Below, one piece after another: positions 4,983 to 56,979 of a stretch of 64,000 bases of DNA (its first letter is position 1; every line of letters starts with the position of its first letter). The notes beneath the pieces were generated by a model. That model made no database searches. It was not told the origin of the DNA and was given only the letters and a program-made list of their open reading frames with translations. A program made the translations under genes and the position numbers. The stretch covers positions 1-64,000 of IMG/VR virus record IMGVR_UViG_3300032607_000379; one strand, given 5' to 3'. The stretch comes from a virus.

Positions 4983-5006
4983 AAAAAAAGCACCCTAAGG
5001 TGCTTT
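4983..5006 (-). terminator. Rho-independent terminator
   Basis: Minus strand AAAGCACC and GGTGCTTT form an 8-bp stem with loop TTAG and a run of seven T. Confidence 0.85.
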
Positions 5007-5071
5007 GATTTAAAACAACATGCTGAGCTAGTAACCGTAACGCTCAGCTAGCCAATAGATGTAGCAATCAG

Positions 5072-5275
5072 TCATGACAGAGCTGTCAAGCTGTTGAGGT
5101 AAGCAATCAAGCCAGCTTTGTCTACAGGGACATCAGCATCTTCATGATGGACATTCCTGAAGCCATTGGCTTTAAGTTCTTTGCTGGTTTTAGTAATGTC
5201 GGCTTGTGTGCCTACGTACTGGGTGTATTGCTTTTGCGTAACATCGTCAAAGAAGCGGATAGCGTAAAGTTTCAT
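5072..5275 (-). CDS. Small hypothetical protein
   Basis: 67 aa (MKLYAIRFFDDVTQKQYTQY), an alpha/beta-looking protein, not recognised. Its stop overlaps an ATG that opens a 15-codon micro-ORF (5028-5075, MTDCYIYWLAERYGY) ending just before the terminator. The micro-ORF may be translated by coupling but cannot be supported further. Confidence 0.6.
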   Translation of the reverse strand: MKLYAIRFFDDVTQKQYTQYVGTQADITKTSKELKANGFRNVHHEDADVPVDKAGLIAYLNSLTALS

Positions 5276-5286
5276 TGGTGTCTTTT

Positions 5287-5463
5287 TTAGTTGGAAGCCA
5301 TGTGAGGGGCAGTTAATTTCTCTTGAATGCGCCAGAATTCCCCGTTTTTACGGGTCTTGCGCATGTAGTCTTCAGCTTGGGTTTTGCTGGTAAATGCTTC
5401 TTCCAATGCTCCGTTTTTGCGAAGCAGGTAAAGAAGGATGGTGTCGTTGGCTTTGGGGATCAT
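5287..5463 (-). CDS. Small hypothetical protein (58 aa)
   Basis: 58 aa, beginning MIPKANDTILLYLLRKNG. A GGAAAG Shine-Dalgarno lies just before the ATG, which overlaps the stop of the upstream 48-aa gene. It is basic, with an aromatic FWRI near the C-terminus, and is not recognised. Tight packing and the overlap are the support. Confidence 0.65.
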   Translation of the reverse strand: MIPKANDTILLYLLRKNGALEEAFTSKTQAEDYMRKTRKNGEFWRIQEKLTAPHMASN

Positions 5464-5606
5464 GCTTCTTTCCAGCCATAGGCAGAAATGTTGATGTCAC
5501 AGCTTTTGGAAGTGGATGTATACATTGTTTTTGCAGCAGTACGGCTGATGCCTGTCCATAACAGTCGTTTGCCGTCTTCCATTTCGATCCAAAATTGGTA
5601 GGTCAT
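5460..5606 (-). CDS. Small hypothetical protein (48 aa)
   Basis: 48 aa, beginning MTYQFWIEMEDGKRLLWTGI. It starts 2 bp after the stop of the DNA polymerase C-terminal fragment and overlaps the next gene by 4 nt. It looks like a small beta-rich fold. No family was recognised. Confidence 0.65.
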   Translation of the reverse strand: MTYQFWIEMEDGKRLLWTGISRTAAKTMYTSTSKSCDINISAYGWKEA

Positions 5607-5608
5607 AG

Positions 5609-6241
5609 TTATTTTTTCTCTGGTTTAAGGTACTTTTCCTTGCCCTCTTTGCAGAGTTCAAGGATTGTTTGCTTGTCAGCGTTGTTATCAAGCGTGATGG
5701 CGTTAGACCAGTTGGGCCAGAAGATGTCTAAGGCAGATCCCAGCTTCACCGTGTCATGCTGGATCTCAGGTAGTTCCTGCCACTGCATTGACAGCACCAG
5801 TTCCCTGTTGGCCCACTCCACTATCTCGATGTTGTCTTTGACAACAAGATAGATAGCGTCATGGATCAGGGCTACTGGTTTGATGTCAAAGCGGTATTTG
5901 GAAGCCCAGACCTTGCGCATGAAGTCCACAGCTGCTCTGTTGTTAAGCAAGCCATAGGACTGACCCATGGCATTGCCTGCGGTTCGTCCTTCAGCTGCAG
6001 CTTCGTAAGGCATCTTGGCTGAGCCAAACATGACTTGCTTGAGCAGTGGGGTTCGGACACGCAAACCAAAAGCTACTTCGACGTAGCCGTCTTTGGCCGC
6101 TTGATGAAGCCGGTCTTGGATGTACTGGTCTGAGACTTGGTAAAGGTCGTGGTAGCCCTTTTCAATGGCTTGCGACTTCTCCATGTCCCAGCCAAGGTTG
6201 CTCATCATCCCGTGGTACGTGCCGCCGTAAGTAAGAAGGAA
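5609..6241 (-). CDS. DNA polymerase family A, C-terminal fragment (fingers end and palm)
   Basis: In-frame homology to PolA-type polymerases begins at TTC 6241 (FLLTYGGTYHGMMSNLGW). The first ATG is at 6208, giving a 199-aa ORF. Counting from that ATG it contains the palm motif C, IHDAIY (H116, D117), and AFGLRVRTPL. The O-helix tyrosine-glycine (YG in LTYGG) lies upstream of the ATG, so an independent start at 6208 would lose the end of motif B. The preceding piece (6244-6372) is in another frame, separated by 5 nt containing TAG. This is the third of three pieces of one N4 gp39-type gene. Whether the pieces are rejoined at the RNA or translation level, act as a split enzyme, or reflect a mutation or assembly error cannot be told here. 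Confidence 0.85.
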   Translation of the reverse strand, partial: FLLTYGGTYHGMMSNLGWDMEKSQAIEKGYHDLYQVSDQYIQDRLHQAAKDGYVEVAFGLRVRTPLLKQVMFGSAKMPYEAAAEGRTAGNAMGQSYGLLNNRAAVDFMRKVWASKYRFDIKPVALIHDAIYLVVKDNIEIVEWANRELVLSMQWQELPEIQHDTVKLGSALDIFWPNWSNAITLDNNADKQTILELCKEGKEKYLKPEKK

Positions 6242-6243
6242 AG

Positions 6244-6372
6244 CTAAGTGGGAGCCTTCGACTCTTGTCTTAGGCTCCCATACTCCTTTTTAATGCGATT
6301 GACCTGAGTTACATTGAACTCAGTGGCAGAGATTTCTTTAATCCCTTCAATCTTGTCTACGTGTATTTCCAT
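6244..6372 (-). CDS. DNA polymerase family A, fingers fragment (middle piece)
   Basis: A 42-codon frame ending in SLRQESKAPT and then TAG. It carries the first half of polymerase motif B (O helix): R35 and K39 of R-x3-K. The Y-G that should follow eight residues after the Lys is in the next fragment. Removing the 5 nt TAGCT at 6242-6246 gives K-A-P-T-F-L-L-T-Y-G, the exact R-x3-K-x7-Y-G spacing of family A polymerases. The upstream end overlaps the stop of the HNH ORF by 16 nt in a different frame. A hairpin (TGGGAGCC/GGCTCCCA, 6249-6280) covers the end of this fragment. Confidence 0.75.
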   Translation of the reverse strand: MEIHVDKIEGIKEISATEFNVTQVNRIKKEYGSLRQESKAPT

Positions 6373-7052
6373 ACAAATCCGTAAGCTAGTTTTTGTCTTC
6401 CATTCAGCATATTGCTGATTGGGCCGGTTGTTTTTTTGCCGAGTGCATGGGATGCGGCATACAAACTTTCATAGGTAGCCACGATGTGCCCATCGGGACT
6501 TATTTGTTGGATTGGTTGTTTTTTGTTTGCGTTTGCTGCTGTGTTGCGTAGTGTTTTTTGCCTAATAAGCTCAGCAGTAAATGCTTGAACTCGGTCAGCT
6601 TTTACCGCAGCATTTCTAAGACTGATGGAAAGTGGGGATAAGGCGTACTCAAACTCTGCAGAAAGCGTTGTCATGTTGTCACCTAAAAGAAAGCGAGACA
6701 AACATTCTTGAAGTTGGTCGCTAGTCAACTTCTTTTTAGCACTCATAGTTCCTAGCTTGTAAGCATGGAGAAGGTTTTCACTTTGAGTTACCCACTCAAG
6801 GTTGTCCTTGTGTGGGTTGGCTCGATTGGCGTCAAGGTGGTTTACAACTGGCTTGCTTAACAAGTTTGGTACATAGGTCTGCGCTACAAGTCTATGCACC
6901 GTTTTTGGATACTGACGGTTGTTTTTCCATAAGGTGACGTACGGATACCCGTTTTCGTTCAGATGGGGAGTGAGGGTATTTCCTTTGGAGGAATTAACCA
7001 CACACCCATCTTCGTTTATCAGGTAGTTTTCAAAATCAGGAATGGGTATCAA
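6357..7052 (-). CDS. HNH homing endonuclease (NUMOD4-HNH-NUMOD1) inserted in the DNA polymerase gene
   Basis: 231 aa from a TTG at 7052 with GGAG 7 nt upstream. NUMOD4-like start (IPIPDFENYLINEDGCVVNS), HNH core with VHRLVAQTYVPN and VVNHLDANRANPHKDNLEWV, and a C-terminal NUMOD1-like DNA-binding repeat (about 180-231, ending GRQKLAYGFVWKY). Such enzymes nick or cut a target and spread into genes lacking the element. The ORF starts 16 nt inside the upstream polymerase fragment and ends inside the downstream one, leaving no non-coding space for a group I intron core. It therefore looks like a gene-splitting free-standing endonuclease rather than an intron or intein. Confidence 0.9.
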   Translation of the reverse strand: MIPIPDFENYLINEDGCVVNSSKGNTLTPHLNENGYPYVTLWKNNRQYPKTVHRLVAQTYVPNLLSKPVVNHLDANRANPHKDNLEWVTQSENLLHAYKLGTMSAKKKLTSDQLQECLSRFLLGDNMTTLSAEFEYALSPLSISLRNAAVKADRVQAFTAELIRQKTLRNTAANANKKQPIQQISPDGHIVATYESLYAASHALGKKTTGPISNMLNGRQKLAYGFVWKYT

Positions 7053-9087
7053 AGTAATGCTCCACAGGTATTTTCGATCCGTCTGGCATTATTATAAAGT
7101 CCCCACTTTTGCATAGCAAGGTATTGGTTCCAACTTTTAATTGAAAACACCGTTCGGTAGTTTCTGCCTGCCGAATGTCTTGAAGCTGATCTTTGAAATA
7201 AGAATAAGCACGCAAAGAGTGGCCGCAGTAGCCGTCTGTATACACTTTTAATTTATTTGTGTCCTTTGTAGTTAAAGCACTGATCATGTCCTCTAGACTA
7301 TTAAAGTCAGCCCCACAAAACAGCCATCCTTTTGGTGCTTCAAAGCATTCCTTGATCAGCTTGCCGTAAACAGAGCCAGCTGGGATGTTCTGCAGATTGG
7401 GATCGCTTGAACTCAATCGACCTGAGACAGTGCCGCCCAAATTAAACGAGCCATGTAGCCAGGCTGTACCGTCTTCTTTAAGCAGCGCTTTTTCAAACGC
7501 TGGAATAAAGGTAGACAGGATCTTGCTTACTTTGCCATGCCCAATTAATGCTGAGAGCAGTTCCTTGTGGGAAATGTCTTGTGCATGGTTGATCAGCTTT
7601 TCAAGCGTGTCAGCACCCGTAGAAGGCTGCCCAGTGTCTGTGGTGTCCAGTACTGGCAAGCCCATGTGGGTGTACAAAAGCTTTTGTAGCTGTTGACCTG
7701 AGTTTGGGTTAAACACTACGTTGTCAAACTTCTCCAGCAAGTGCTGTTTGACTTTGAGCTTGGCATTGGCAGCTGTTTGGGCGTCATTGCGTAGCGTTAA
7801 GTTGAGTTGCTGAGACAACACGCTGTTGGTGATCACTGCTAAGTGACTGGCTTGGATAGCTTCAAGTTCTGCTTTGACTTCTTGCACTTTGTCCTTGTTC
7901 AAAGGCATACCTGTCAGCTCCATTTGAATAATCAACTTGAGTGACGGCAGCATCAGATCGTTGTAGAGCGTCAACTGGTTTTCAGACTCCACAACGGGCA
8001 AGTGCTTAGCTTTAACAAAGTTAGTGCACATTGCGTCCACCAAGTTGTACTGGAGCAGTTCAGGCAAAGGAATCCTGCGGATGTCCTTGATGTCTTCCTT
8101 GGCCCAGTTGCCAGCAAACTCATGAGCCAGTGATTTCAGGCCCAGTACGTTGCCAGCAGTGCTGTTGGTAGCCAAGTACGCGATCACCTTGGTGTCGTGC
8201 ATGTTGGCTGTCATGCAGTCCAAGCCGCGCAGCATGTTAGGTGTGTCCAGTAAGTCATCCATCCACAGGGCGTAGATGATGGCTTTAACGTCATAGGTGG
8301 AATGATGAAAAGTCAGCTCACCTTTGTACTCCATGAAGAACTTCAGCAGCAGGTCACGAACTTGTTTGTTTGGACCAAACCATCCATAGAAGCCTTCTGC
8401 AGGACGTTCTGCATATTTCTTGTAGTCACAGGCAAAGGCAATGCCGTTGTGCTGATCCCAAGCAAAGGCAATAGTGCCAATGCCTGCTTCGTTAAACGAG
8501 AGCGAGAAGCCTTCGATGTCACAAGCAAGGCTTGGATACTGGTGCAGCGATTGAAGGGCTTCAGCGACGTTCTGGAGCGTCTCAGGGTAGCTTGCAGAGT
8601 GAATGATCCCGCTGCCAAGCGCTTTGTAGTCGCCAGCTATTTTGGAAGCCAAGGTATCTAGGCTCATGGTCAGGCGAGGCTGCAGATCCGGGTTGAATAT
8701 CAACTGTCGGTAGTTCAAAGTAAGCACTACATTGAAGTGCTCGTAGCCTTTGACCTTGCAGGGCATTGCATAGCCGTAGTGCGGCTCAGCTTTGGCTTGG
8801 CCAGCAAGTACCTTGAAGTACGCAGCATCAGCCACCAGAAGGTGTTTGACGCCTAGCGAATCCAAAGCTGGCAGGAGCTTTTGCAAATAGTCTTTGCAAT
8901 GCCCGGTAGGTGCTTTGTCCTGTTCGTTGTAGCTTAGGGTAAAAGCAATGACATCTTTGATGGGAACATTGCGCTCAGCCAAGGGGTTGACGTAGCTGTT
9001 AACAAGCTCTTGCTTGAAAAAGCTATTGCCCTTGATCAGCAGCGCAACAGGGTATGACTCAGATTCTTCAAAGATGTGGTGTCGCAT
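7036..9087 (-). CDS. DNA polymerase family A, N-terminal fragment (exonuclease and start of palm)
   Basis: 683 aa, corresponding to N4 gp39. The proofreading exonuclease is complete: D190-x-E192 (ACDIEG), D266 (HHSTYD) and Y347-x3-D351 (YNLVD). The polymerase domain starts with SGRLSSSDPNLQNIPA (about 556-570) and motif A D594 in GADFNSLED. The reading frame then passes DGYCGHSLRAYSYF and ends at residue 683 in THS, where the HNH ORF takes over. Motifs B and C are in the two downstream fragments. It lies between the hypothetical gene at 9092 and the HNH gene, in the replication operon. Confidence 0.92.
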   Translation of the reverse strand: MRHHIFEESESYPVALLIKGNSFFKQELVNSYVNPLAERNVPIKDVIAFTLSYNEQDKAPTGHCKDYLQKLLPALDSLGVKHLLVADAAYFKVLAGQAKAEPHYGYAMPCKVKGYEHFNVVLTLNYRQLIFNPDLQPRLTMSLDTLASKIAGDYKALGSGIIHSASYPETLQNVAEALQSLHQYPSLACDIEGFSLSFNEAGIGTIAFAWDQHNGIAFACDYKKYAERPAEGFYGWFGPNKQVRDLLLKFFMEYKGELTFHHSTYDVKAIIYALWMDDLLDTPNMLRGLDCMTANMHDTKVIAYLATNSTAGNVLGLKSLAHEFAGNWAKEDIKDIRRIPLPELLQYNLVDAMCTNFVKAKHLPVVESENQLTLYNDLMLPSLKLIIQMELTGMPLNKDKVQEVKAELEAIQASHLAVITNSVLSQQLNLTLRNDAQTAANAKLKVKQHLLEKFDNVVFNPNSGQQLQKLLYTHMGLPVLDTTDTGQPSTGADTLEKLINHAQDISHKELLSALIGHGKVSKILSTFIPAFEKALLKEDGTAWLHGSFNLGGTVSGRLSSSDPNLQNIPAGSVYGKLIKECFEAPKGWLFCGADFNSLEDMISALTTKDTNKLKVYTDGYCGHSLRAYSYFKDQLQDIRQAETTERCFQLKVGTNTLLCKSGDFIIMPDGSKIPVEHYFDTHS

Positions 9088-9091
9088 AGCG

Positions 9092-9610
9092 TTAAATAAG
9101 TAGGTTATTGACCATTCGTTGCTTTATAAGCCGGATGGGGATTTGGTTTTTCTGCTGAAGCAGATCCACAGTCTCATCAGAAAGCTTTTTGGCCCGACAA
9201 GGACAGGTATCAATAAGACTTTGAACGGGATGGTGGACAGACTGCGGCAGCAGTCGAAGATAGTCATGTAATTCATTGGATGAGTTAAGTACCTGAGTTA
9301 TAAAACCCAGTACATAAGGCAGCTCTTTCTCATTAAGCTGCTTGGTTTCTTTGAGGTACTCATTCATGACAGGGTGCAGCTGCGGATGTAAACGATTCAT
9401 CTTGCGTGGCAGCGCTGTAGTATCACAGTTATAAACCACGTTTTTATAAATAAATGAAACATGGGAATGCCCACTTAATATTGCATTTCTTGTAGCAAGT
9501 TGCTGCAAGCGGTCTTTAAACTGTTTGGTCAACGGTGCATAAAGGTGCTTGTAAAGCACATCTTTAATTTGCTGTTTAGTGCGTGGGTCGTGTTGCAACT
9601 GTTCTGTCAT
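9092..9610 (-). CDS. Hypothetical protein between helicase and DNA polymerase
   Basis: 172 aa, not recognised. It is basic and helical, with His-rich and Gln/Leu-rich stretches and a CPCRAKK near residue 135 that could bind metal. It has no membrane segment. It sits 4 bp from the polymerase gene, in the position of N4 gp38, so a replication-linked role is possible by context only. Confidence 0.65.
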   Translation of the reverse strand: MTEQLQHDPRTKQQIKDVLYKHLYAPLTKQFKDRLQQLATRNAILSGHSHVSFIYKNVVYNCDTTALPRKMNRLHPQLHPVMNEYLKETKQLNEKELPYVLGFITQVLNSSNELHDYLRLLPQSVHHPVQSLIDTCPCRAKKLSDETVDLLQQKNQIPIRLIKQRMVNNLLI

Positions 9611-54218: not shown

Positions 54219-55967
54219 CTACGCTGAGCAGGCAATGCACTCGTCCTTAATGACGACGCCGCTCCGGCTGTAGATGTAGTACTGGCTCAAGCAGTCAGGG
54301 TGCAAAAGCACTTCAGTCATGAGGTCAGCTACTAAGCTTTCAGAGCCGTCTTCTGGAACATAAAAGTTCAAAGACTGGCCCTGACAGGTGTACTTTTGCC
54401 GCTGGGTAGCGTGACGCAAAATAATCCGCTGATCCATCTCAAAGGCGTTGAGAAAGACCAGCTTTTCCTCGGGGGTCAGCCAGCTAACGTGCTGGACAGA
54501 TCCCAGGTTGTCGATGATGTTTTGGATCGTGTCATCGCTGTACACACCCTTGGCTTTCATCACCTCATAGATCACTGGCGTGATCCGGCGCAACTCGCCT
54601 ACAGCTGTACCTGCGTCAAAGACTGCACCTGGATCTGGGAACCAAGACTCGCTGACACCGCCCATGAGCAGCGCCGTAGACTTGGTCGGTGCATAGGCAG
54701 TGCGGTGCGTGTTGCGCACCCCGTAGCCTTTACACCAGTCTGGCTCACTGTATTCCTGAGCAAGCCACTGGGAAGCACGCAGGCTTTCATCGTGCAAATG
54801 CTTGGCAATCTCACCGGACAGGAACTGGGCTTCCAGTCCGATGTAAGGAATGCTTTTGCTTTGCAAGTACGTGTGGAAACCCATGATGCCAAGACCGATG
54901 GCTCGGCCTTTGCGGGTGAACTCACGTACTTTTTCCATGCCAGGGATACCTTCGCTGGCTTCAATGAACTCGCTGCACAGGCAGTCCAGAAACACTGTGG
55001 CAACGAATGCGGAGTCGCTGCTCTTGATCCGGTCCCAGTGAACAAGGTTCAATGAAGACAGGATGCAGGAGTATGTGTACTCATCGCTGGAGTGCAGCAT
55101 GATCTCGCTGCACAGGTTGGATGCCACGATGTCCAGACCATGGTCTTTGTACATCTGGGGGCGGTGGCGATTGGCTTTGTCTACGCAAAAGATGTAGCCC
55201 TTGCCCGTGGTGAGCTTGGTGTACAGAGCTTTGATCCAGCGCTTGGAAGCGTCTTCTTCACCTGCCACCAGACGGGCAATGAACGTGTCCTTGATGATCC
55301 AGCCGTAGTTCTTGCCATTGGGATCCGCTGCCAGCTGGTCGCAGGCTTCGTCCCAATCTGGGTGCTCGATGTCAAGGTAAGCGCCTACGGAGCCACGACG
55401 ATTGCCGCCTTGGCTGATCTTGCCAGCGGTAGTAAAGAAGTCATTAATGACCTCTACTGGTCCGCTGGCTTTGCCGCCGCTCTTGATGGCTGTGCCTCGG
55501 GCACGAATGGTGGAGAAGTCAGCGCTAGTGCCAAAGCCCTGCTTGGACAGCAATGCGGTTTCCCGCAGGTTGTCATAGAAGGACTCCACAGAGTCTCCGA
55601 CTTGCTGGCCTGAGCAGCTAACCATCATGCCTCGGCTGGTTCCAGTGTTGGACAAAGCCGGTGATGCTGGCGACAAGACGCCATCCCACAGTTCGTTGAA
55701 GAACTTGGCTTCCCACTCCAGCTCCCGTCCTTTGAGGTGACGGGCAAGCGTCTTGGCAATCTGCTTGTGCCTGCCCAGCACAGCGTCTTCGCCTGGCAAG
55801 GTGTACTTTTCTTTGAACATCTGCCAGCCCGGTGTTGTGTACCAGGCGGGCAAGTGGCCTTTGTCTTGCAAAGCTTTGCGCTCAATGCTCAGGCGTTCAT
55901 ACTTTTGCAGGTTCTCCACCGCAGGCGGTGAAGTCTGCTCAGCAGTGTCAATCGGATTACCGTGCAT
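54219..55967 (-). CDS. nrdA: Class I ribonucleotide reductase, alpha subunit
   Basis: 582 aa from the ATG at 55967, which overlaps the end of nrdB by 11 nt. Reduces ribonucleotides to deoxyribonucleotides with NrdB. Visible: SPASPALSNTGT, the redox Cys in MMVSCSGQQVGDS, the active-site box NLCSEIML (Cys and Glu), and a C-terminal CIAC pair for electron transfer. There is no ATP-cone at the N-terminus, so dATP inhibition would be absent, as often seen in phage enzymes. A longer frame upstream has no ribosome site. Confidence 0.93.
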   Translation of the reverse strand: MHGNPIDTAEQTSPPAVENLQKYERLSIERKALQDKGHLPAWYTTPGWQMFKEKYTLPGEDAVLGRHKQIAKTLARHLKGRELEWEAKFFNELWDGVLSPASPALSNTGTSRGMMVSCSGQQVGDSVESFYDNLRETALLSKQGFGTSADFSTIRARGTAIKSGGKASGPVEVINDFFTTAGKISQGGNRRGSVGAYLDIEHPDWDEACDQLAADPNGKNYGWIIKDTFIARLVAGEEDASKRWIKALYTKLTTGKGYIFCVDKANRHRPQMYKDHGLDIVASNLCSEIMLHSSDEYTYSCILSSLNLVHWDRIKSSDSAFVATVFLDCLCSEFIEASEGIPGMEKVREFTRKGRAIGLGIMGFHTYLQSKSIPYIGLEAQFLSGEIAKHLHDESLRASQWLAQEYSEPDWCKGYGVRNTHRTAYAPTKSTALLMGGVSESWFPDPGAVFDAGTAVGELRRITPVIYEVMKAKGVYSDDTIQNIIDNLGSVQHVSWLTPEEKLVFLNAFEMDQRIILRHATQRQKYTCQGQSLNFYVPEDGSESLVADLMTEVLLHPDCLSQYYIYSRSGVVIKDECIACSA

Positions 55968-56979
55968 CAGCCAATTCCTTGTTGAAGGCCAGCTTGTGCT
56001 TGGCCCAGTTACGGGTGTATTGCAGCTGGGTCGCTGCAAAGAAGTCGGGCACTTTCACAGTGGAAAGCTGCTGGTAAAACCAGTTGGAGATAACGCCCTT
56101 GGTGTGGCCAAACATGGGCGGCATTTCCAGGCGGTTAAGTACTACGTCAATGCGGTCTTCCAAGAAGCGGTTGAGTTCTTCTTGCGTGACCACACGGTTG
56201 CCGGAAATGGCAAACAGCAAGTCATTGATGCGGCGTTCGTGATCTGCCACTTGCTCAGCAATAGTCAGGATCTTTTGGCGCAGCGCAGCTTCCTGAGCTT
56301 CAGAATGGTTCCCTGCCTTGACGCGTTCGGCTTTGCATTCCCTGAAAAGACGGGCTGATGCAATGGAGTGAAAGTTCTCGTCCTTGGCAGAACCGTCGAT
56401 ACCCGAAACAAAGTGCGGGATCAGGTTGTAGCCACGGGAGTTAAAGCCCTTGAAGAAGCCAAAGGCTGTAAACAGTACTGCACCTTCAAGGAATGCCAGT
56501 GCTGCAGTAACTTCTAAGGCGTCTTCCGACGCGGTGCACGCGTTGATAAAGGCGATGCGCTCAGCCAGGATGGGATCTTGTTTCCAACGGGTATAAAACT
56601 CGTCCGTGCTGTTGCCCAGAACCTTATTACCAAGGTCATAAAACGGAGCATGGGAGCCAAGCTCCACATTGGCAAAGCAAGCTGCCATGCGCTGGATCTC
56701 AGGGCGTGGGAAAAGGCGTCCGATCTTGCCACCCCACAATTCTTCTCCACCGATCATCAGCTCGTACTGAGTCAGAACTGACTGAGCTGTAAGCAAGCCA
56801 TGACGCTCTGCATCATTTAGTCCTACCCGGAAGTCCTGCTCGTCCTCTTCTACGCCAAGCTCTTCTGCAGGCCAAAAGATAGCTTGTTGCTCAATACTCA
56901 TCTCAGTAGCCCATGGATACCGGGCTACATACGACTCAGTAGGAGATTCAATCTGGCTCAGATAGGTTTTCTGTGTCAT
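55957..56979 (-). CDS. nrdB: Class I ribonucleotide reductase, beta subunit
   Basis: 340 aa. Ferritin-like di-metal ligands are visible: E in WPAEEL, E and H in NVELGSHAPFY, E in FLEGAVLF and the later ENFH. A Tyr four residues after the first His is the likely radical site. It supplies the radical used by NrdA, encoded just downstream and overlapping. The order nrdB-nrdA is reversed compared with most bacterial operons. Confidence 0.92.
   Translation of the reverse strand: MTQKTYLSQIESPTESYVARYPWATEMSIEQQAIFWPAEELGVEEDEQDFRVGLNDAERHGLLTAQSVLTQYELMIGGEELWGGKIGRLFPRPEIQRMAACFANVELGSHAPFYDLGNKVLGNSTDEFYTRWKQDPILAERIAFINACTASEDALEVTAALAFLEGAVLFTAFGFFKGFNSRGYNLIPHFVSGIDGSAKDENFHSIASARLFRECKAERVKAGNHSEAQEAALRQKILTIAEQVADHERRINDLLFAISGNRVVTQEELNRFLEDRIDVVLNRLEMPPMFGHTKGVISNWFYQQLSTVKVPDFFAATQLQYTRNWAKHKLAFNKELADAR

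Follow-up and report, generated by a model that had tools for sequence, protein, structure and literature searches.

Ribosomes very probably hop over a 5-nucleotide (nt) insert in the DNA polymerase gene of an N4-like phage (Schitoviridae), to judge from the sequence of that gene and of its relatives. The phage is represented by the window, the 64,000-nt stretch of DNA analyzed here, which is part of a 69,382-base virus record. An HNH endonuclease gene splits the polymerase gene, and the insert interrupts the codons of the catalytic O helix downstream of it, directly behind an mRNA hairpin and between codons that may suit one tRNA. This arrangement recurs in relatives, goes together with an intact HNH gene and is followed by coding sequence under purifying selection. 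We consider it highly likely that the HNH gene and the insert form a mobile homing cassette, in which a tiny bypass element accompanies the nuclease gene and programmed translational bypassing lets the polymerase survive an insert that blocks the nuclease's target.

The record has the gene content of an N4-like phage, including N4-type RNA polymerase subunits, portal, primase and ribonucleotide reductase, and the minus-strand DNA polymerase of the window matches Schitoviridae phage polymerases. The ribonucleotide reductase small- and large-subunit frames overlap (55957-56979 and 54219-56039, minus strand); the best PHROG for this enzyme, phrog_30939 (977 positions), covers both subunit frames in one protein. 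The family A DNA polymerase is encoded in two parts with the HNH gene between them (Table 1). It is the only polymerase of this family in the contig, with no second copy, and the HNH gene gives the only HNH_3 match across the 69-kb contig. Split polymerases share a conserved tail of ~40 amino acids (aa) on part 1, which is missing from unsplit polymerases, and an extension of ~20 aa on part 2. Pollock, Pylas and SP5M have a similar tail where their polymerases are split at another position, before GYDGH. The part 1 tail weakly matches the beginning of an intein-like chain, PDB 9hth_A, which bears the name DNA-directed DNA polymerase (E 0.0068 for the best stretch); it has no Pfam intein match, and an intein C half of normal length was not found. 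These tails may help the two polymerase parts to associate.

Table 1. Features of the split DNA polymerase locus in the window
Feature	Position	Strand	Basis
DNA polymerase part 1 (exonuclease domain and first half of polymerase domain)	7036..9087	-	Pfam DNA_pol_A 5.5e-32; phrog_17 1e-115
C-terminal extension of part 1, RQAETTERCFQLKVG...YFDTHS	7036..7173	-	Alignment of 16 tails
HNH homing endonuclease (NUMOD4, HNH_3, I-HmuI-like C-terminal motif)	6357..7052	-	Pfam; phrog_59 6.8e-39
Polymerase part 2, 5' reading frame from ATG 6372 to the take-off codon, 42 codons, ending RQESKAPT	6247..6372	-	
Extension of part 2	6327..6372	-	
AAGGAG, Shine-Dalgarno-like, immediately 5' of the hairpin; role uncertain	6283..6288	-	
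Hairpin UGGGAGCC..GGCUCCCA; abuts the take-off codon, its last A touching the codon	6249..6280	-	
Proposed take-off codon ACU (Thr)	6247..6249	-	
Proposed bypassed insert TAGCT; stop UAG 6246-6244 overlaps proposed landing codon GCU 6244-6242	6242..6246	-	
Polymerase remainder (FLLTYGG..., O-helix Phe and Tyr, motif C)	5609..6241	-	PF00476 positions 204-344 over 5831-6274

The original prediction, made from the sequence of the window, placed an in-frame TAG and a 5-nt frame break inside the O helix, and this was confirmed. The 5' frame of part 2 reads MEIHVDKIEGIKEISATEFNVTQVNRIKKEYGSLRQESKAPT and ends at TAG; the polymerase resumes from position 6241, in another frame, with FLLTYGGTYHGMMSN. 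Intact relatives such as L005-L007 read KAPTFLLTYGG uninterrupted, so TAGCT is a net 5-nt insert, and its removal restores the helix as had been proposed. Translation from the possible start at 6208, predicted to omit a catalytic residue, would leave out both the O-helix Phe and Tyr. The hairpin noted before the break is also real: positions 6247-6280 fold at -21.5 kcal/mol (z -6.7), and none of 200 shuffled sequences was as stable.

Inserts were found in 20 metagenomic contigs, the window and 19 others from IMG/VR, all within one hot spot of about 15 nt. Thirteen of these inserts are 5 nt long (window, L026, L089, L095, L097, L099, L127, L045, L103, L101, L102, L104 and L105), one is 9 nt (L021) and one is 1 nt (L088, in a T run and possibly an error). 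The remaining five contigs have long inserts: 40 nt in L120, 45 nt in L113, 47 nt in the matching pair L114 and L115, and 48 nt in L116. The 5-nt inserts follow one or the other of two O-helix Thr codons, the last of KAPT or the last of KAPTFALT, and all 13 bring an immediate in-frame stop, which may be UAG, UGA or UAA. The stop comes later in the long inserts (at the second codon in L113, L114 and L116 and at the eighth in L120), and is also missing directly after take-off in the 9-nt and 1-nt inserts; mechanistic details must therefore differ for the long inserts. Every insert except the 1-nt one has a stop in or adjoining the take-off frame, and the effects on frame are +1, +2 and 0. In L088, at 12783 on the contig's minus strand, the insert reads UUU-U-GCU; the gene is split by an HNH gene and has a hairpin, and the extra nucleotide represents either a +1 frameshift form of this element or an error in the homopolymer.

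Some of these loci came from insert-directed searches, so frequencies are valid only from the HNH searches and from an unselected sample, for which relatives were fetched by the C-terminal part of the polymerase irrespective of the insert. In this sample the O helix was intact in 76 of 79 judgeable relatives and broken in three (L021, L026 and L045), all of them split by an HNH gene at the same place and with the same layout. Searches with the HNH proteins yielded L089, L127 and the five contigs with 40-48-nt inserts. Two IMG/VR scans for the O-helix codons, which let 5 unspecified nt follow KAPT or KAPTFALT, returned 13 stretches; two (L096 and L098) were unrelated sequence, and the 11 true O-helix inserts had an immediate in-frame stop in every case. 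Scans of IMG/VR permitting 1-31 nt gave four contigs, all four HNH-split loci, and a scan for longer gaps gave the known long inserts and L192, in which the gene is split and the O helix intact. Contig L119 has a deletion or misassembly that fuses the HNH gene to the polymerase beyond the O helix, and is uninformative. Querying GenBank phages with three proteins or peptides turned up no insert-bearing cultured phage, and an insert search of cellular genomes gave a single match, attributable to chance.

Since the window is a single metagenomic contig and the 1-nt insert of L088 lies within a T run, a sequencing or assembly error might be suspected. For the insert family as a whole this explanation is already refuted: there are 19 other contigs, from many samples, and a random indel at the O-helix site occurs in 0/76 other relatives. 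We regard it as negligible for the window. Alternatively, the gene might be decaying, with the insert an inactivating mutation, perhaps a scar of repair after cutting, and the polymerase dead. Nuclease cutting can leave short insertions, and a stop with a frame change does lie within a catalytic helix. Yet every 5-nt insert brings a stop, a compatible landing codon and a flush hairpin together, identical inserts are present in independent assemblies (L097/L099, L102/L104 and L114/L115), and no further family A polymerase is encoded in the contig. The coding sequence downstream of the inserts is also constrained, with pN/pS values of 0.18-0.55 (about 0.25 for the window remainder compared with L026). 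Mutation, decay and sequencing error had all been listed as alternatives in the original prediction, and recurrence, codon pairs, hairpins and downstream constraint speak against them; decay in particular we consider improbable.

Presence of the insert follows the nuclease gene. Every locus that is split at the O-helix-proximal site, and in which an intact HNH gene and the O helix can be read, has an insert, compared to 0/71 unsplit genes. Three split loci have neither an intact HNH gene nor an insert: L079, where an HNH remnant alone lies in the split, and L077 and L192. In the latter two an unrelated open reading frame replaces the HNH gene and the polymerase is still split, with an intact O helix. 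The HNH gene adjoins the insert and is gained or lost with it, except in L095, L097 and L099, which have kept the insert and lost the HNH gene. The nuclease tree disagrees with the polymerase tree for L088 and L045, and L102 and L105 are identical to just past the insert and then about 70% identical for some 120 nt. Upstream of the split in L026, two HNH genes lie within one polymerase gene, and the one adjacent to the insert groups with HNH genes of the GYDGH split site.

A related nuclease is found with an intron at this hot spot. In the cultured Acinetobacter phage nACB1 (OQ032511), a group I intron of about 0.8 kb (Rfam 41 bits, E 9e-9, under the gathering score of 50) interrupts the polymerase O helix at KAPTFA-L^LTY, in the Leu codon of FALTY. 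The two insert sites flank this position, one at a distance of 7 nt and the other at 5 nt, and the HNH protein of the intron is 61% identical to that of L103. The simplest reading of these sequences is that the nuclease targets O-helix DNA and would travel with a device that spoils its target, in one case an intron and otherwise a bypassed insert. Pseudoalteromonas phage pYD6-A (L107, 4166-4378) has a group I intron (Rfam 88 bits) and an HNH gene in the same polymerase gene, at motif A. Identity of the O-helix site with the SPO1-like intron site was considered and rejected; in SP82G the intron lies near the GRLSS motif, outside the O helix.

The nACB1 intron, at nearly the same place, raises the possibility that a minute intron or other processing removes the insert from the RNA so that ribosomes never meet it, and the long inserts are indeed hairpins. 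But inserts of 5 nt and 1 nt are below the size of any known intron type, and splicing needs neither a stop codon nor matched end codons. Nor did Rfam reveal an intron: there was no match at E <= 1 in positions 5000-9500 of the window, for which a group I intron was rejected, and no match at the gathering score in the tested insert loci. We view RNA removal as improbable, about on a par with decay.

Bypassing requires that we consider the codons at the two ends of the gap, and we define the landing codon as the last three bases of the insert. Take-off and landing codons specify the same amino acid in 13 of 17 tabulated elements. The codon is identical in L089, L095, L097 and L114 (ACU/ACU), L101 (ACG/ACG) and L088 (UUU/UUU), and synonymous in L026 and L116 (ACC/ACU), L102 and L105 (ACG/ACA), L113 (ACG/ACC), L120 (ACU/ACA) and L021 (CUC/CUU). 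The other four pairs, ACU/GCU in the window and L103, ACC/GCU in L045 and ACU/AUU in L127, need one G.U pair, so that the window landing codon is only a wobble match to ACU. Stop and landing codon overlap in the 5-nt inserts, where the sequence takes the form ACN-UR-NNN. In sequence terms, the two codons of an element would suit one tRNA, mostly as ACN/ACN.

Ordinary -1 (or +2) ribosomal frameshifting without skipping would also reconnect the frames of the window, given that a 5-nt insert is equivalent to a -1 shift and that an internal Shine-Dalgarno-like AAGGAG lies upstream. Frameshifting would, however, put two extra residues (Leu-Ala in the window) into the O helix and disrupt its Lys-Phe-Tyr spacing, and CCC ACU UAG contains no slippery heptamer. 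Inserts of 9, 45 and 48 nt are frame-neutral, needing no shift, yet contain in-frame stops; frameshifting therefore cannot solve them, and we judge it very unlikely. One of the motifs AGGA, GGAG or GAGG is present in 16/17 elements, but also in intact genes (43/72 at the FALT position, 13/72 at the KAPT position), for which reason a Shine-Dalgarno role is left uncertain.

A three-piece enzyme, in which the stop is used and the remainder is made by re-initiation, might be suggested by ATGATG 11 codons past the break in the window. This would split the O helix itself, and L095, L097, L101, L102, L105 and L116 lack a start codon over the 61-103 codons that follow the insert, so that in those six the enzyme cannot be rescued by re-initiation; the chance that it operates here seems minimal. 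Skipping is the economical reading, because it alone restores the same catalytic helix for every insert length.

Hairpins flush with the insert are a further shared feature, ending at the take-off codon or at most 2 bases away. For inserts after KAPT, the minimum free energy of the 45-nt segment ranges from -13.7 to -23.8 kcal/mol, compared to a mean of -5.4 (sd 3.1, minimum -14.5) kcal/mol in 71 intact genes. Compared with synonymous recodings of the same peptide, with codons drawn from each gene's own usage, the window hairpin is more stable (p = 0.002), and so is the real sequence in 13/13 tabulated short (1-9 nt) inserts (p 0.001-0.03); the upstream hairpin was not significant in this comparison in 3/4 long inserts (p 0.11-0.14). 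Compensatory changes keep the stem at three pairs among the window, L026 and L089 (A-U/G-C, G-C/C-G and C-G/U-A). Where the insert site shifts from KAPT to FALT, the hairpin shifts too; at the FALT position the stem is partly dictated by the protein sequence, and some intact genes reach 9-11 bp. An outer stem around the insert, AAGGAG/UUCCUU, is present in the window, L026 and L089 and was rejected as a general feature, being lost in L095, L097 and L127. The long inserts of L113, L114, L116 and L120 have a further strong GC-rich hairpin within the gap (-18.5 to -26.6 kcal/mol). No take-off stem-loop of that kind occurs in the window, where a 5-nt gap cannot hold one.

Together, these features suggest how the cassette could operate. 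The HNH gene splits the polymerase gene, and an insert ~100 nt downstream, in O-helix codons that the nuclease probably recognizes, would spoil the target and thereby spare the carrier from cutting. By itself the insert would kill the polymerase, were it not that ribosomes would skip over it. When Thr-tRNA is paired with ACU in the P site and the A site holds UAG, zipping of the hairpin at the trailing edge of the ribosome would pull the mRNA; the peptidyl-tRNA would release and re-pair 5 nt downstream on GCU, and decoding would restart at UUC. Closure of the last pairs of the flush hairpin could give enough displacement for a 5-nt move. The product would have the unchanged O helix RQESKAPT-FLLTYGG, and the predicted spanning peptide contains SKAPTFLLTYGG. 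Bypassing itself, its efficiency, the motor role of the hairpin and protection of the target are what we infer from the arrangement.

The closest parallel is T4 gene 60, to which the original prediction had likened the window. Relatives with the same split, stop-containing inserts, codon pairs and flush hairpins lend support to that comparison at the level of sequence. Run through the same script, gene 60 gives 46 codons, take-off GGA, UAG, a 50-nt gap and landing GGA. In gene 60 a stop follows the take-off codon, and a 5' stem-loop closing at the rear of the ribosome is believed to draw the mRNA along (PMC5009743, PMC11194080). In both systems an HNH gene (mobA in T4) splits an essential replication gene (PMC5009743, PMC3014915, PMC11194080). 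Both also have a stop at or near take-off and a 5' stem-loop, and the end codons, which match one tRNA in gene 60, may do so in most polymerase elements. The gap begins 46 codons into the second cistron of gene 60, compared to 38-47 codons from the part 2 start in the polymerase elements, and its 50 nt compare with 40-48 nt in the long polymerase inserts. The T4 insert, too, is thought to protect against the nuclease. Gene 60 differs in encoding a topoisomerase and in using Gly codons, whereas the polymerase elements lie in a DNA polymerase gene and their matched codons are for Thr; in addition, most polymerase elements have a 5-nt gap, where the sole predicted hairpin is 5' of take-off and none is in the gap. 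Homology between mobA, a fragment with 37 aa left, and the HNH proteins of the polymerase locus was undetectable.

Other systems share some of these properties. Synthetic "stop-hops" (reviewed in PMC5009743) involve matched codons around a stop and a short hop, but they are constructs, whereas the polymerase form is natural, hops 5 nt because the stop overlaps the landing codon, and has a hairpin and a mobile nuclease. In mitochondria of Magnusiomyces capitatus, ribosomes skip many mobile inserts in coding DNA, called byps, seemingly independent of mRNA context and with relaxed mitochondrial decoding (PMC5009743); in contrast, the polymerase inserts are confined to a single hot spot of a single bacteriophage gene and are accompanied by a hairpin and an HNH gene. 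The nACB1 intron shares the O-helix hot spot and a closely related HNH gene, but is removed from RNA by splicing and is about 0.8 kb rather than 5 nt long. The Corndog tape measure gene, beside an inserted HNH gene, may likewise be expressed non-canonically, by bypass or from an ACG start, although there it is the gene start that is concerned and no matched-codon insert is described (PMC4351075).

T4 gene 60 has long been the single well-proven bypass of the bacterial type, and, according to a 2016 review, the existence of shorter matched-codon counterparts had long been presumed (PMC5009743). A search of open-access papers found no report of bypassing in Schitoviridae or in a phage DNA polymerase. 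We think it likely that Schitoviridae polymerases hold diversified mobile bypass elements at one hot spot, ranging from stop-hops of 1-9 nt to gaps of 40-48 nt and alternating with a group I intron, and that among natural programmed bypasses the 5-nt form is the smallest, with a hairpin that closes directly behind the ribosome as its main driver. Gene finders misread polymerases that carry such inserts as broken. If ribosomes do skip the insert, a selfish nuclease can persist, with no need of an intron, where an essential enzyme is most conserved.
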